Source of the DNA: an uncultured Saprospiraceae bacterium
GTDB lineage: Bacteria > Bacteroidota > Bacteroidia > Chitinophagales > Saprospiraceae
Length of the DNA: 64,000 bases
Direction of reading: 5' to 3'
NCBI GenBank assembly: GCA_937928045.1
Contig: CALFWO010000004.1
Location: 1 to 64,000 of the forward strand
How positions within the stretch are numbered: position 1 is the first letter of the stretch; each line of letters starts with the position of its first letter. The notes under the pieces are model-generated. The model saw only the letters and a list, made by a program, of their open reading frames with translations, had not been told where the DNA came from and did no database searches. Positions 6,771 through 30,816 of the stretch are shown one piece after another. The translations under genes and the position numbers were made by a program.

Positions 6771-6818
6771 TGGTGCTAAGCTTTGGTATAATAAGAAGAC
6801 GTCTGAAATTATGAATAG

Positions 6819-6838
6819 TTAACAATGAATATTGTTAA
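6819..6838. promoter_or_regulatory. Perfect 8-bp dyad, candidate operator
   Basis: TTAACAAT and ATTGTTAA flank a 4-base centre (gaat). The site lies about 50 bp upstream of the start of the minus-strand gene ending at 6770, in a promoter-like position. No U-tract follows, so it does not look like a terminator. The small HTH gene just upstream (7004-7264) is a speculative partner. Confidence 0.35.
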
Positions 6839-6965
6839 TTCCAAAATAAAAAAAATAGAGGAGCTAGTAGCTTATTTTGAATGAATTCAGCAGCTCGTAA
6901 CCTTTAAGACTTAACAGTATTTAAAAGTGATAATGAGAATTCGCGTTGAACAATAACTTGGGAAA

Positions 6966-7001
6966 ATAAAAAGGGAAGTACATTTGCACTTCCCTTTTTA
7001 T
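6966..7001 (-). terminator. Rho-independent terminator, possibly bidirectional
   Basis: A perfect 14-bp inverted repeat, ATAAAAAGGGAAGT (6966-6979) with ACTTCCCTTTTTAT (6988-7001), and an 8-base loop. It starts 2 bases past the stop of the small HTH gene on the minus strand. Confidence 0.85.
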
Positions 7002-7003
7002 AG

Positions 7004-7264
7004 CTAAGAATAATTGACCTGTTCTGATGCGGAAATTAGCTGCTTTGCCAAATCCAGAATTTTGTTGTCTTCTAATTCAACAAATCCTCCGTCCGGTCCG
7101 GGCTGAATGTGTTTTCCTACGATAGTTCCTTCTTGATACTTTTTGGCTCCGAAGTAATTCCGTACAGATTGTTCGGAAATATTTAGTTGATTAGCGATTT
7201 TTTGAATGCTTCCCGTTGGGAGAGAATGCTTGATAGTTCGAAGCTCAGAAAACGAAATGTGCAT
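7004..7264 (-). CDS. Small helix-turn-helix DNA-binding protein
   Basis: An 86-residue soluble protein. Residues about 15-40 (LPTGSIQKIANQLNISEQSV) read as a helix-turn-helix with the turn at LNIS. A short Gly-rich beta hairpin follows (QPGPDGGFVELED) and a C-terminal helix. I recall similar short DNA-binding proteins as common in Bacteroidota but know no assigned target. It stands alone, about 230 bp from either neighbour, with its own strong terminator at 6966-7001, so it is probably monocistronic. The start is an ATG at 7264. Confidence 0.72.
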   Translation of the reverse strand: MHISFSELRTIKHSLPTGSIQKIANQLNISEQSVRNYFGAKKYQEGTIVGKHIQPGPDGGFVELEDNKILDLAKQLISASEQVNYS

Positions 7265-7496
7265 AAGCTAAAGTATTTAGTGAAAAGATGTGGTGAAAGT
7301 ATATTGTATTGGTAAATTATGTAAAAATGGAAGAATATCCAAGTTTGATGGATTAAAACATGTGTATAATTTTGAAAATTGGCGATTTTGCAATTTTTAA
7401 AGTCATAGTATAGATTAGTGCTTTATCACTTTAAAATTCCAAAATCTTTACAAACTTTGTTTCATCGTAACGGATATCTCGACTATTCTAACTCAT

Positions 7497-8897
7497 TTAT
7501 TGATATCCCAATAATTTCATCATGTGCTCCGCACTTTGAGTTTCTGATGTTAACTCATGCGTAAAGTTGCCATTAGAGTCCTTATTGATCAAGATGTGTT
7601 TGGGGCCCGGTATTAAGCAATGTTTGATACCTCCAAAGCCAGAAATAGAATCCTGATAAGCGCCAGTATGGAAAAATCCTAAGTATAAAGGCTCTTTGTC
7701 GTCAACAGGATAGGAGGGCAAGAATACTTGATTCTCATGTACTTCCGAATTGTAATAATCTGAATTATCACAACTCAGTCCACCGATATTTACACGAGTA
7801 TATTCGTTTTTCCACTTGTTCAAAGGCAATAAAATAAATCGTTCGTTGATACCCCAGCTATCAGGAATGGTGTTCATCAAGGAGTTGTCAATCATATACC
7901 AAAGCTCAGATTGGTTTTGCCTTTTCTGTCCAAGAACGGAGAATATCGTTGCCCCAGATTCTCCTACGGTATATTTGCCAAATTCAGTCAATATATCTGG
8001 CTCTTCAATTCCATCAGCAACACAGGCTTGTTGAATCATCGATACAATCTCATTAACCATATATGGGTAATCAAATTCGAAACCTAGCGAGTGTCTAATC
8101 GGCATTCCGCCACCAATATTTATGGCACGAAGTTCTGGACAGATTTTTTTCAGTTCGCAATAAATTTTCACTGCCTTTTTTAATTCTCCCCAATAGTAAA
8201 GCGAGTCTTTGATCCCAGTATCCACAAAAAAGTGGAGCATTTTTAATTGTATCTTCTTGCTGCGCGCAATTCTCTTTTTTGCAAAGGAAATGATATCGTT
8301 CGCCGAAATGCCCAGGCGAGAGGTGTATACCGAAAAGTTAGGTTCTTCTTCCGTTGCTACTCTTAGTCCAATTTTTAGATCACCCTTGACTCTTTGCTTC
8401 AAGCCATCCAACTCTTCCATGTTATCTAGAACCGGAATAGAGTTCTTAAAGCCGTCATTGATCAATCCCGCGATCTTATCCAGATAATCAGCTGGCTTAT
8501 AACCGTTGTGCACCAAGATTTTAGACTTGTTTATTTTCCCTTTTTTTTCTAGTAATCGAATAATATCAATGTCGTAAGAACTAGAAGTTTCCAATTCTAC
8601 ATCGTGGCGACAAACTTCTTCCAAAATGTATCTGAAATGTGAACTTTTCGTGCAATAGCAATAGTGATAGCGCCCTTTGTAACCCAAGGACTTCATGGAC
8701 TTATGAAATAGATTTCTAGCCTTTTTTATTTGAGCCCCAATTTTTGGCAAATAGGTCAGCTTCAAAGGCGTTCCGTAGATATCGATTAGCTTCTTAAGCG
8801 GCATCCCGTGAAAGGTCAAATAGTCCTCCTCGATATCAAATCCATCTTGCGGAAAATAGAATGTTTGATCAATTAGATCAAGGTATCGGTTTTTCAA
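7497..8897 (-). CDS. speA: Arginine decarboxylase-like type III PLP decarboxylase
   Basis: A 466-residue PLP-dependent decarboxylase of the alanine-racemase fold. The PLP lysine is expected at K84 in HYCYCTKSSH. The Gly-rich phosphate loop is INIGGGMP (about 260-266). The C-terminal barrel carries the CDNSD motif (C376, D377) expected across the active site. The length fits the short Bacteroidota arginine decarboxylase rather than the roughly 650-residue enterobacterial SpeA. The product would be agmatine for polyamine synthesis. No agmatinase or deoxyhypusine synthase-like gene is adjacent. The start appears to be TTG at 8897: no ATG occurs in this frame before residue 32, and the N-terminal NRYLDLIDQTFYFPQ matches family members as I remember them. 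Substrate (Arg versus Lys or Orn) is inferred. Confidence 0.82.
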   Translation of the reverse strand: MKNRYLDLIDQTFYFPQDGFDIEEDYLTFHGMPLKKLIDIYGTPLKLTYLPKIGAQIKKARNLFHKSMKSLGYKGRYHYCYCTKSSHFRYILEEVCRHDVELETSSSYDIDIIRLLEKKGKINKSKILVHNGYKPADYLDKIAGLINDGFKNSIPVLDNMEELDGLKQRVKGDLKIGLRVATEEEPNFSVYTSRLGISANDIISFAKKRIARSKKIQLKMLHFFVDTGIKDSLYYWGELKKAVKIYCELKKICPELRAINIGGGMPIRHSLGFEFDYPYMVNEIVSMIQQACVADGIEEPDILTEFGKYTVGESGATIFSVLGQKRQNQSELWYMIDNSLMNTIPDSWGINERFILLPLNKWKNEYTRVNIGGLSCDNSDYYNSEVHENQVFLPSYPVDDKEPLYLGFFHTGAYQDSISGFGGIKHCLIPGPKHILINKDSNGNFTHELTSETQSAEHMMKLLGYQ

Positions 8898-9048
8898 TCT
8901 CTCTAAATAAAATTGGTGAAAAGAATGGCCAATTTAACAAATCTTTGATTTCAATGTTGAAAAACCATAACTTTATCGATAGCAAGCAAATATTTTTTCT
9001 CTCCGTACAGGGTTCCTCCTTTATTTACAAGACAAAAGCGTCCAGAAC

Positions 9049-27824: not shown

Positions 27825-28703
27825 TTACTTTGCTTTTCCGCCGTCTAATTCATCTTGCCACTTCTTCAATTCATCCCATTTACCTTCAGCAGCCATTTTT
27901 GCTTGGTCTGGCCAAGTTGTAGGATCCATTGCTTGGTATACACCACCAGCCTCGGTTAAGAATTCTTTGATTTTGGCAGCCTCGGTAGTTGAAAGGGCCG
28001 CAAATGTTGAAATGCCTTTTCCTACTAGCATTTCCTTCACTTTAGGTCCAATTCCTTCCACTTTTGTCAAATCATCAGCTTCAGCGGCCGGAGCAGCTGG
28101 TGCTTCAGGAGCCGCAGCTTCAGCTGCTGGAGCTTCAGGCGCTTTTTCTTCAACTGCCGGTGTTTCTTCAACAGTTGGAGTTTCTCCAGATGCTGATTCA
28201 ACAGTAGTTTGCTCAACAGAATCAGCGAATGACTTATTATCTTCTTCAGCTGGCTTGTGCTCATCTACAACAACCTCTTTGACTTTTACGGCTTTCTTTT
28301 CACCTGCACGTGCTGCATGCATTGCCTTGATTTCAGCTAAAGTTTCTTGCTTTCTTGCTTCAATTTTGGCTTCTTTCTCAGTAATCCAAGCCTGATATTT
28401 TTCATCAGCTTGTTCTTCAGTTAAAGCTCCTTTAGAAACACCTCTCATCAGGTGCTTGCGGTACATTACTCCTTTGAATCTAAGCATCGCTCTAACTGTA
28501 TCAGTAGGCTGCGCACCTTTCATCAACCAATCAAAAGCTCTATCTCTATCGATTTCGATAGTTGCAGGCTTTGTCATTGGGTTGTATGTCCCTAATTTTT
28601 CAATGAATTTACCATCACGAGGTGCTCTGGCATCAGCTACCACTACATGGTAGAAAGGTCGTTTCCGCCGACCATGGCGTTGTAATCTAATTTTTGCTGG
28701 CAT
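27825..28703 (-). CDS. rpsP: 30S ribosomal protein S16 with C-terminal helix-hairpin-helix domain
   Basis: A 292-residue protein. Residues 1-85 are canonical S16 ([52 protein letters not shown]). A helical basic extension follows to about 145, then an Ala/Pro/Glu low-complexity linker (about 150-209), then an 83-residue domain starting [17 protein letters not shown]. That segment is a helix-hairpin-helix with the GIGPK hairpin, ending in [21 protein letters not shown] recall similar tails fused to other ribosomal proteins (such as L21) in Bacteroidota. Typical S16 is 80-100 residues. The usual neighbours rimM and trmD are absent. Confidence 0.93.
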
Positions 28704-28776
28704 TTTTGCTAAAATTTACTTGGTTTAACCATACCCATTCTTGCTCATAAAGAGCTCACGGGTTTCTAACGAGGCG

Positions 28777-28784
28777 CAAAGATA
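28777..28784 (-). promoter_or_regulatory. -7 promoter element of rpsP
   Basis: On the minus strand TATCTTTG matches TAnnTTTG exactly, about 74 bp upstream of the rpsP ATG. No -33 TTTG is obvious. Confidence 0.55.
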
Positions 28785-28942
28785 AGGGTTTTTAATTATA
28801 AATTGCCATAATGTTTTGGCCTTTTTATTGGCGGAAAATTTTGAGCTGAATTGAAAATAGGAAGGTGTTTTTTGATGGTTCTTTTGCTTGAAAATCAGTA
28901 AGTTATTCTGATCATTGGATTTCGTAAAAATCCGTAGCCGCA

Positions 28943-29106
28943 AAACCTATCCGCACATATGACTCATCCTTTGTTAATAACTTTTTAATAGTATTGGCAG
29001 CGCACATTTACCCCCATTCGTTTTGAAGTCACAATGTCACAATACTGACTTGTGTATGAAACTTAATGTGCGGGACTCCTAGAAATAGGTTGTCCCCATT
29101 TTTTTT
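28943..29106 (+). ncRNA. Candidate structured small RNA with own terminator
   Basis: No + strand gene exists between rpsP (start 28703, minus) and the response regulator (stop 29105, minus). Yet a + strand terminator with an 8-T tract ends here (29072-29106). Upstream bases pair in a long-range way: AACCTAT (28944-28950) with ATAGGTT (29085-29091), CCGCACAT (28951-28958) with ATGTGCGG (29066-29073), and AGTATTG (28990-28996) with CAATACT (29040-29046). This leaves a large internal bubble, a rod-with-bubble outline like 6S RNA. A second CGCACATT (29001-29008) can compete for AATGTGCG (29065-29072). The 5' end is uncertain; TTTG (28970) and TAGTATTG (28989) form only a poor promoter for a shorter form. 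The 6S identity is an inference. Confidence 0.45.
29072..29106 (+). terminator. Rho-independent terminator on + strand, no protein gene upstream
   Basis: GGGAC (29072-29076) pairs with GTCCC (29092-29096). An inner CCTA/TAGG stem (29078-29081, 29086-29089) is capped by a GAAA tetraloop. Eight T residues follow at 29099-29106. On the minus strand no U-tract follows, so the direction is +. Confidence 0.75.
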
Positions 29107-29785
29107 ACCCCACAAATCGATAGCCAACTCCTCTTACTGAAATAAAAAACTGAGGATTCGAAGGATCTACTTCAAAGTATTTTCTAAAATTCAAGATGAA
29201 ATTATCAATCGTTCTAGTAGAAGGGTAGACGTCATAGCCCCAAACCGATTGTAAAATTTGCTGGCGAGATACTACCTCATTTTTTCTATCCACCAACAAC
29301 TTTAAAAGCATCGCTTCTTTCTTTGTTAAAGTAAACGCTGAGCGCAATCCTTTGGCTTCAAAAGTTAAAAAGTTGACTTCATTTTCTCCAAAACTGTACT
29401 TTTCATGATTTGCAGCCTCTTCCTTATTGCTTCGTCTGAGCAAATTATGCACCCGAAGTAGCAATTCTTCTAGATTAAATGGCTTGGTCAAATAGTCATC
29501 TGCTCCTCTTTTTAATCCAGCTATTCTATCCGAGGCGGCATCTTTGGCTGTTAAAAATATGATTGGAACTTCCATATTCGTCAAGCGAACTTGTTCGCAA
29601 ATTTGGAAACCATCCATATCAGGCAACATTACATCTAGAATCAATAGATCGAAATGTTGTTCATGAAAGAGTTTTACTGCATCTTTCCCATTGCCCGTCG
29701 CGATCACTTCAAATTCTTCTAACTCGAGGTTCAATTTGACTAATGAGCGAATATGTTCTTCGTCCTCTACTAATAAGATTCTCAT
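29105..29785 (-). CDS. OmpR/PhoB-family response regulator
   Basis: A 226-residue regulator. The receiver domain (1-120) has VEDEE acidic pocket residues (7-10), phospho-acceptor Asp51 in LLILDVMLPDMDG, Thr in FLTAKD and the Lys in YLTKPF. A winged-helix trans_reg_C domain covers about 130-226 (TLTKKEAMLLKLLV, SRQQILQSVWG, TIDNFILNFRKYF, VRGVGYRFVG). It overlaps the histidine kinase gene by 4 bp (29782-29785), so the two are translationally coupled and form a cognate pair. The genes it controls are unknown. Confidence 0.92.
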   Translation of the reverse strand: MRILLVEDEEHIRSLVKLNLELEEFEVIATGNGKDAVKLFHEQHFDLLILDVMLPDMDGFQICEQVRLTNMEVPIIFLTAKDAASDRIAGLKRGADDYLTKPFNLEELLLRVHNLLRRSNKEEAANHEKYSFGENEVNFLTFEAKGLRSAFTLTKKEAMLLKLLVDRKNEVVSRQQILQSVWGYDVYPSTRTIDNFILNFRKYFEVDPSNPQFFISVRGVGYRFVG

Positions 29786-30816
29786 GATTTATTATTTGAA
29801 ATGGTTGCTTTTCTCTCTGTAAACCGTTTTCTGGGGAAAAAGATCTCAAATCTAGTGCCTTTAGGTGAATTTGACAATACATTGATTTTTCCGTCGTGCG
29901 CATTCACTACGCGTTGAACAATAAAAAGACCCAATCCAGTTCCTTTGGCTCGCCGAGTATCCTCGTTTCCTATCCGATAAAACTGGTCAAATATTCGCTT
30001 TCGTTCGGAAGGTGGTATGCCATAACCTTCGTCTTTGATGTAGAGAAAAAGTTGATTGTCATCAATCCCAGTTTCTAATTCAACATTTGCCGGATCTGGA
30101 CTATATTTTATGGCATTCTCGATTAGGTTGATAACTATGGACCGAATTCCAAAATCATCTCCTTCGAATTCACCTTCGTTTAAATTAAATTCTAAGCTCA
30201 GATTAGCGGATGGATATTTTTCAGTTAATCTATCAATGGTCTCTGTAAAAAGTAGATTCAAATCCAAGGATTCCATGACCGGTTGATAAGCAGATTCAAC
30301 TTTTGCGGCTAGAAGTAAGTTATTTACTAAGTCATTCAATCGATCTGATTCTTTTATACCAGATGTAGAAAGCATGTTAACTTTTTCTTTGTCTAAGTCC
30401 CTTCGGAAAATAGTTTCAAACGCCAATCGAATTGAGGCGATTGGAGATTTTAATTCATGGGTAATGGACAGTAAAAAATTTCTTCTCTGTTGTGCAGCAA
30501 ACATCGCATTTCTATATCCTCTATTAATTAACCAAATGCCTAAAATTAAACTTATAATGAAGAAGGTTGCTTCGCCAAAAATCATCCACTCTTGTCGCTC
30601 ATATTCTTTCGCAAGGCTTTTGTAAATATCGGATTTGTAAAACTCTTCACGCGTGTCAACATTACCTTCAGCCACCATTACAATTTGTAAATATTCAGAC
30701 TTCGCATTGAATGCATCTCTGTTTTTTACAAACAACAAAACCGACCACCATGCAAACGCCACTAGCATATATGCTATCACGATATTCGAAAGCAGGCGCA
30801 TGCGTTTATCTTGCAT
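29782..30816 (-). CDS. Membrane sensor histidine kinase
   Basis: A 344-residue kinase with two transmembrane segments (about 10-30 and 78-97) enclosing a short extracytoplasmic loop of about 45 residues, too small for a large ligand-binding domain. HisKA has the phospho-acceptor His120 in LLSITHELKSPIASIR. The ATPase has the N box VINLIENAIKYS, G1 IKDEGYGIPP, F box KRIFDQFYRIG and G2 GTGLGLFIV. No HAMP domain is obvious. It starts 2 bp after hemL and overlaps its response regulator, so hemL-kinase-regulator read as one operon. Confidence 0.91.
   Translation of the reverse strand: MQDKRMRLLSNIVIAYMLVAFAWWSVLLFVKNRDAFNAKSEYLQIVMVAEGNVDTREEFYKSDIYKSLAKEYERQEWMIFGEATFFIISLILGIWLINRGYRNAMFAAQQRRNFLLSITHELKSPIASIRLAFETIFRRDLDKEKVNMLSTSGIKESDRLNDLVNNLLLAAKVESAYQPVMESLDLNLLFTETIDRLTEKYPSANLSLEFNLNEGEFEGDDFGIRSIVINLIENAIKYSPDPANVELETGIDDNQLFLYIKDEGYGIPPSERKRIFDQFYRIGNEDTRRAKGTGLGLFIVQRVVNAHDGKINVLSNSPKGTRFEIFFPRKRFTERKATISNNKS

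Follow-up and report, generated by a model that had tools for sequence, protein, structure and literature searches.

Intergenic small RNAs (sRNAs) are common in the Bacteroidetes. In Bacteroides thetaiotaomicron 124 intergenic sRNAs are counted, and an intrinsic terminator is given for 49 (PMC7366714); for Flavobacterium psychrophilum 85 new RNAs are listed, of which 40 are antisense, with a median length of 176 bp (PMC9723704). As described there, such RNAs are intergenic, short and without an ORF; GibS and the 49 'high-confidence' sRNAs also end in a hairpin and a U run, and Rfp18 of F. psychrophilum is a further intergenic sRNA for comparison (PMC7366714, PMC9723704). The candidate described here shares these features; it differs in being predicted from sequence alone, and no conservation was found beyond its own genome. 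The second group of described systems consists of the 6S-type families of Rfam, namely 6S (RF00013), 6S-Flavo (RF01685) and Bacteroidales-1 (RF01693), the last of which is annotated there with the words '6S-Bacteroidales RNA suggested'. 6S RNA acts as a global regulator. B. thetaiotaomicron is reported to have 6S and product RNAs (PMC7366714), and identity of that gene with RF01693 is not assumed here.

The window that we analysed is a stretch of 64,000 nucleotides from an uncultured Saprospiraceae bacterium, whose genome assembly (G000) comprises 5,175,009 bases in 75 contigs. A gap at 28704-29104 is flanked by two minus-strand genes: rpsP, encoding ribosomal protein S16 (27825-28703; Ribosomal_S16, E 1.2e-27), and an OmpR-type response regulator (29105-29785; Response_reg and Trans_reg_C), which turns its 3′ end towards the candidate RNA and is followed by its histidine kinase and then a class-III aminotransferase. 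The named records closest to the regulator are from Saprospiraceae. No plus-strand ORF of at least 40 residues lies in the gap, and a minus-strand ORF of 72 residues occupies 28725-28943.

The rpsP product itself is 292 residues long. It carries a long C-terminal extension in which alanine and glutamate abound, and near the C-terminus HHH_5 (helix-hairpin-helix) matches weakly, at 25.4 bits where the cut-off is 27. The stretch 5′ of rpsP (28703-28800, minus strand) is conserved in relatives, at nine loci in eight genomes, with 74-84% identity over 75-122 nt. It includes a perfect copy of the -7 element TAnnTTTG, TATCTTTG, which starts at 28784 of the minus strand. We read this conserved stretch as promoter and leader, perhaps with an added regulatory role.

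The sequence-only reading of this DNA had noticed a terminator on the plus strand between rpsP and the regulator with no plus-strand gene before it, and this can be read directly from the letters. The element spans 29072-29106: a stem at 29072-29096 (GGGAC.CCTA-GAAA-TAGG..GTCCC, 5 + 4 pairs) with a GAAA loop at 29082-29085 is followed by CA and by eight T at 29099-29106. A scan in which the bases before each T-rich octamer were folded across the whole 64-kb window placed it, at -14.6 kcal/mol, 11th of 29 sites. Judged against dinucleotide shuffles, as were the folds of the candidate below, the hairpin 29070-29098 alone has a z-score of -3.34 with one of 300 shuffles as good, and the terminator pair 29074-29094 has a probability of 0.985 in the full RNA. 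A simple terminator scanner returned no site in 28000-30000, probably because of the bulge in the stem.

Eight of the 12 strongest hairpin-plus-T sites in the window lie 50-61 nt past the stop of a same-strand ORF of at least 110 residues, so in this genome such sites mark where transcripts end. The remaining four are the candidate's own site, 27798 and 28144 on the plus strand and 6969 on the minus strand. The 27798 site is the second face of the rpsP terminator (27768, minus strand), the 28144 site is strong and unexplained and falls within the repetitive rpsP tail, and the 6969 site is intergenic. Because three of the 11 other strongest sites have no same-strand gene within 61 nt, orphan sites of this kind are not rare. 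The 6969 site (region 6771-7496, -17.0 kcal/mol) has no same-strand ORF of at least 110 residues in the 500 nt before it, and possibly belongs to another orphan transcript or small gene.

The reading that we favour, tentatively, is that the candidate (28943-29106, plus strand) is a lineage-specific orphan sRNA ending in its own intrinsic terminator. It is preferred because a complete terminator with eight T is joined to a compact fold, and it draws support from the use of the hairpin-plus-T pattern at transcript ends in this genome, from the lack of a plus-strand ORF in the gap, from a whole fold that beats most shuffles, and from the frequency of such RNAs in the phylum (PMC7366714, PMC9723704). 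By sequence, the candidate has the predicted 3′ intrinsic terminator, with no same-strand coding gene, that is looked for in an orphan intergenic sRNA. We infer both the transcription of the RNA and its start site: the product would be about 105 nt (from near 29001; 29001-29106 is the shortest plausible form) to 165 nt long, ending at the terminator. It might act on other transcripts by pairing with them along the unpaired segment 29009-29019 (TACCCCCATTC), a mode of action that is usual for intergenic bacterial small RNAs.

The signals for initiation are faint. The putative start near 29001 follows a weak match with one mismatch, TAGTATTG at 28989-28996, to the Bacteroidetes -7 element TAnnTTTG, with no -33 element (3 mismatches). 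Eight such one-mismatch matches occur on the plus strand within the 561 bases of 28600-29160, none of them exact, so any single one is weak; the -7 match at 28836 is preceded, at a distance of 17 nt, by a perfect TTTG. A scan for promoters of the sigma-70 type gave six sites where 4.0 were expected. The absence of a good plus-strand promoter counts against the orphan sRNA, as does the finding that orphan hairpin-plus-T sites are not rare.

The same terminator allows a second reading that is possible, and nearly as likely as an orphan sRNA. The hairpin would belong to the 3′ end of the regulator mRNA on the minus strand, its T run on the plus strand would stop stray antisense transcription arriving from the rpsP promoter region, and the RNA upstream of it would have no function. 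The eight T end within the stop codon of the regulator gene. Since the scan lists no terminator for the minus strand from the regulator to rpsP, the regulator mRNA may also end at this hairpin. The rpsP terminator is likewise two-faced, and the minus strand of the 164-nt segment folds too (-37.3 kcal/mol, z -1.59, 15 of 200 shuffles as good). In two relatives (L066 and L091) an opposing terminator stands 110 and 140 nt past the regulator. On the minus strand, however, the hairpin is followed by GCACATTAAG, without a T run. Moreover, an opposing terminator within 100 nt of the regulator was found in only one of 22 relatives (L084), and the next ORF there is convergent, which argues that guarding the regulator in this way is not a general need. 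The 22 relatives, all with sequence past the regulator, are what is left of the 25 of 30 regulator loci that were read (all but L067, L072, L075, L077 and L079), after removal of our own and of two (L074, L076) that end at the regulator.

The arrangement in these relatives also raises the idea, which we consider unlikely, that the terminator is a relic of a lost plus-strand gene that once faced the regulator. The first ORF of at least 90 residues past the regulator is convergent in 13 of the 22, and in L084 the distance from the regulator to the opposing terminator is 13 nt. A decayed protein gene in the gap was nevertheless rejected, the six-frame peptides of the gap having no convincing similarity to the ORFs of the loci compared (L033-L104); the best match, the window's own ORF aside, covers 8 residues (E 6.4e-4) and lies in the conserved rpsP leader.

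For the fold of the RNA, the sequence-only reading had proposed three long-range complementary stretches arranged as a rod with a large bubble. All three stretches are there, letter by letter: 28951-28958 with 29066-29073 (8 pairs), 28944-28950 with 29085-29091 (7) and 28990-28996 with 29040-29046 (7). Its further statement that the outer stem and the terminator exclude each other was borne out. The rod itself did not survive folding: with the rod pairs kept, the RNA reaches at best -23.7 kcal/mol against -35.3 kcal/mol for the free fold, a penalty of about 12 kcal/mol in the full RNA, and the three rod stretches alone give -18.1 kcal/mol. Pair probabilities in the full RNA are 0.009 for the outer pair 28947-29088, 0.0 for the inner pair 28993-29043 and 0.72 for 28954-29070. 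What stands of that reading is the orphan RNA with its own terminator, a plausible element given that its T8 site is among the stronger ones and no plus-strand gene precedes it; the rod and, as set out below, the 6S assignment are not supported.

In the free fold, either of two (C)CGCACAT copies closes a stem of 6 to 8 bp, a hairpin forms at 29020-29062, and the terminator follows; the longer form of the RNA gains a second, A+T-rich hairpin. The closing stem is 29001-29008/29065-29072 or 28953-28958/29066-29071. The inner hairpin (CACAA.GUCA / UGACUUGUG) is unexceptional by itself (29012-29062, z -0.99, 40 of 300 shuffles as good). The 5′ strand CGCACATT at 29001-29008 is a second copy that competes for 29065-29072 (pair 29003-29070, probability 0.28) with the alternative strand CCGCACAT at 28951-28958, which pairs with 29066-29073. 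Upstream of the latter, AACCTAT at 28944-28950 is complementary to 29085-29091 in the terminator and pairs only when the terminator is incomplete or open. Folding of the piece 28943-29092, in which the terminator is incomplete, accordingly places the whole outer stem of 15 pairs in the minimum-energy fold (-32.3 kcal/mol, z -2.08, 13 of 300 shuffles as good), with local hairpins inside it and the inner pair absent.

These alternative pairings would also suit a regulatory RNA specific to this genome whose 5′ arm switches between two states: the nearly identical strands 28951-28958 and 29001-29008 would compete for 29065-29073, and AACCTAT of the longer form would pair into the terminator. We hold this to be improbable. 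Were it true, the choice of start site, the speed of RNA polymerase or a ligand could switch termination, and switched termination would expose the response-regulator region to antisense transcription.

The 164-nt candidate folds better than most shuffles (z -2.76, one of 200 as good; z -2.55, seven of 300 in a repeat run). With the terminator left off, the piece 28943-29071 is no better than shuffles (z -0.98, 43 of 300), and since the excess vanishes in this way it is mostly due to the terminator. The extended piece 28900-29106 reaches only z -1.6 (13 of 300); a fold from 28999 on gives z -3.9 with none of 300 shuffles as good, a start chosen after the pairing had been seen. The ordinary part before the terminator and the modest score of the extended piece weigh against the orphan sRNA. 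They also bear on a reading to which we give a low probability, that a hairpin and a T run have arisen by accident in A+T-rich intergenic DNA and no transcript exists: the fold is ordinary once the terminator is removed, and the repetitive rpsP tail, too, holds an unexplained strong site. Against accident stand the score of the hairpin taken alone, matched by a single shuffle in 300, and eight T in a row after it.

Relatives of the candidate were sought in 147 other genomes by DNA similarity and with a single-sequence covariance model of its structure (R2), and the lack of any by either route is a further point against the orphan sRNA. No convincing DNA homologue was found by blastn, the best other match having an E-value of 0.0019. 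At E up to 1, blastn matches fell in 113 of 148 genomes, our own included, and among the matches listed all were short apart from the candidate's own locus; the four that touch the terminator part (L005, L009, L017 and L029) were inspected and judged to be chance, and the others were judged by length and E-value. R2, run with strict filters, found no structural homologue in the 147; besides the candidate itself it returned two weak matches among the 148 genomes (E 0.2 and 0.4), taken as chance. Among the loci compared, a single relative shares the gene order (L082, in genome G075); its gap is 238 nt long, and no segment like the candidate was seen in it. Within the genus, the regulator of G001 (a genome 73% complete) is 93% identical over residues 1-175 and its contig (G001:C487) ends within the regulator gene; no rpsP was seen in G001 or in G002, the two other genomes of the genus. 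An inverted repeat of the MITE or transposon type was also considered and dropped, because the candidate is present in a single copy in the genome.

The sequence-only reading had gone on to infer that the candidate is 6S RNA, on an outline that is all it shares with RF00013 and RF01685. Rfam gave no match at gathering scores over the window, and the covariance check proposed with that reading, run over 28600-29400 at E up to 10, gave three matches, all to unrelated families (E 1.4-9.5) and none of 6S type. With strict filters and E up to 1, RF00013 had no match in the 90 neighbourhood genomes searched, and RF01685 gave only two chance-level matches in our own genome (E 7.8 and 8.5). Of 40 genomes searched with RF01693, 11 had a match at E up to 1. 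No match passed the cut-off, and our own genome was not among the 11; two of them fell below E 0.01, both outside Saprospiraceae.

Two genomes of the order to which ours belongs gave RF01693 scores of 40.1 and 32.5 bits, and the core shared by both matches furnished a pattern, AANGGCGGGC...GATTAC, that was searched in the 148 genomes. It occurred in 35, against 18 for the reversed control, so about half of the matches are chance. Eleven were retained by eye, where the surrounding similarity continues, and the others were dropped, one of them (L216) after reading; the match on contig 24 of our own genome (L203) was not retained as a member. A covariance model, R1, was built from seven of the 11 members, its training alignment having 20 pairs, 15 with change on both sides. 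R1 found matches in 57 of the 148 genomes at E up to 1 and in 53 at E up to 0.001, with the seven training genomes counted in. It gave none in G001 or G002, where a miss is no proof of absence, the filters losing weak matches and the genomes being incomplete.

In our own genome R1 has exactly one match, G000:C54:5657-5806 on the plus strand (68.7 bits, E 5.3e-12). This contig-54 RNA (L263:1458-1607) folds into a rod (-58.1 kcal/mol, z -2.59, none of 200 shuffles as good) with a long closing stem that leads into a U run. Rfam gave no match to it at E up to 1, and none at gathering scores to any of the 11 family members tried, our own copy included. In Saprospiraceae and neighbouring families (L217-L246) the RNA appears as a rod of about 190 nt with a conserved GGCGGGCCUCA...ACAAGGGGAUUAC core and a U run.

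The family has strong covariation, and the rod is supported. For RNAalifold, 23 sequences from outside the R1 training set were aligned with MAFFT, one further match (L232) being left out. The result was 37 pairs, of which 30 have at least one change on both sides, including 12 of the 14 closing-stem pairs; this count has no shuffle control. In a model-fitted alignment of all 24, which leans towards R1, the share of cells that pair is 88.4%, compared with 75.4 (sd 1.0) after shuffling and at most 58.5 after sliding, and the covariation score, subject to the same leaning, is 0.511 against 0.256 shuffled and at most 0.153 slid. The assignment of the family to 6S follows Rfam's label and the outline, and the contig-54 RNA is the likely 6S counterpart of this organism. 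No publication on 6S RNA in Saprospiraceae was found by title or abstract opening. The group may already be included in an earlier wide survey of bacterial 6S RNA, so we make no claim of first discovery for the family.

It is therefore to contig 54, where the genome's 6S-like RNA sits, that the evidence for 6S leads, and it is very unlikely, the least probable of the readings weighed, that the candidate at 28943-29106 is the 6S RNA of this organism. Its length, its terminator and its long-range stem, which is present in the best fold of 28943-29092, do recall 6S, and with Bacteroidales-1 and the R1 relatives it shares the length class and the 3′ T run. The R1 family has a 14-bp closing stem, a bubble and a GGCGGGC...GATTAC core, whereas the candidate has no such core, no plus-strand match and no preference for the rod. 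The core does not occur in the window, over which R1 has one match (8890-8950, 14.3 bits, E 1.6). With filters off over 28500-29300, R1 found no plus-strand match across 28943-29106; on the minus strand it gave 28971-29069 (7.8 bits) and 29099-29151 (3.8 bits).

The window also carries one copy of a palindromic intergenic repeat, GGATTTCGTAAAAATCCG, specific to this genome (28917-28937, plus strand; 28913-28937 lie within the copy), which ends 5 bases upstream of the candidate; no link between the two was seen beyond position. Allowing up to two mismatches, there are 44 copies in our own genome against none for the reversed control, one in G001, inside an ORF, and none in G002. With up to one mismatch there are 38 in our own genome and a single one in 297 other family genomes. 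One of the one-mismatch matches (L293) falls within an ORF and probably has no relation to the repeat. The copies examined form arrays between genes, the period being near 52-53, 98 or 177, and the spacers of tandem arrays are alike inside one array and different between arrays. Arrays were observed on contigs 15, 20, 28, 39, 43 and 72 (L265-L268, L278, L279, L286 and L289). The copy in the window (28886-28937) is a solo one, perhaps with a decayed neighbour beside it.

As an orphan sRNA, the candidate would be one of many in the phylum, and it matters little while it is known from sequence alone. The 6S-like family and the palindromic repeat outrank it, and its main use was the check that it prompted, which led to that family. 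The 6S-like RNA of Saprospiraceae and neighbouring families is now located, with a rod supported by covariation, so there are defined loci at which 6S biology can be tested in this group.
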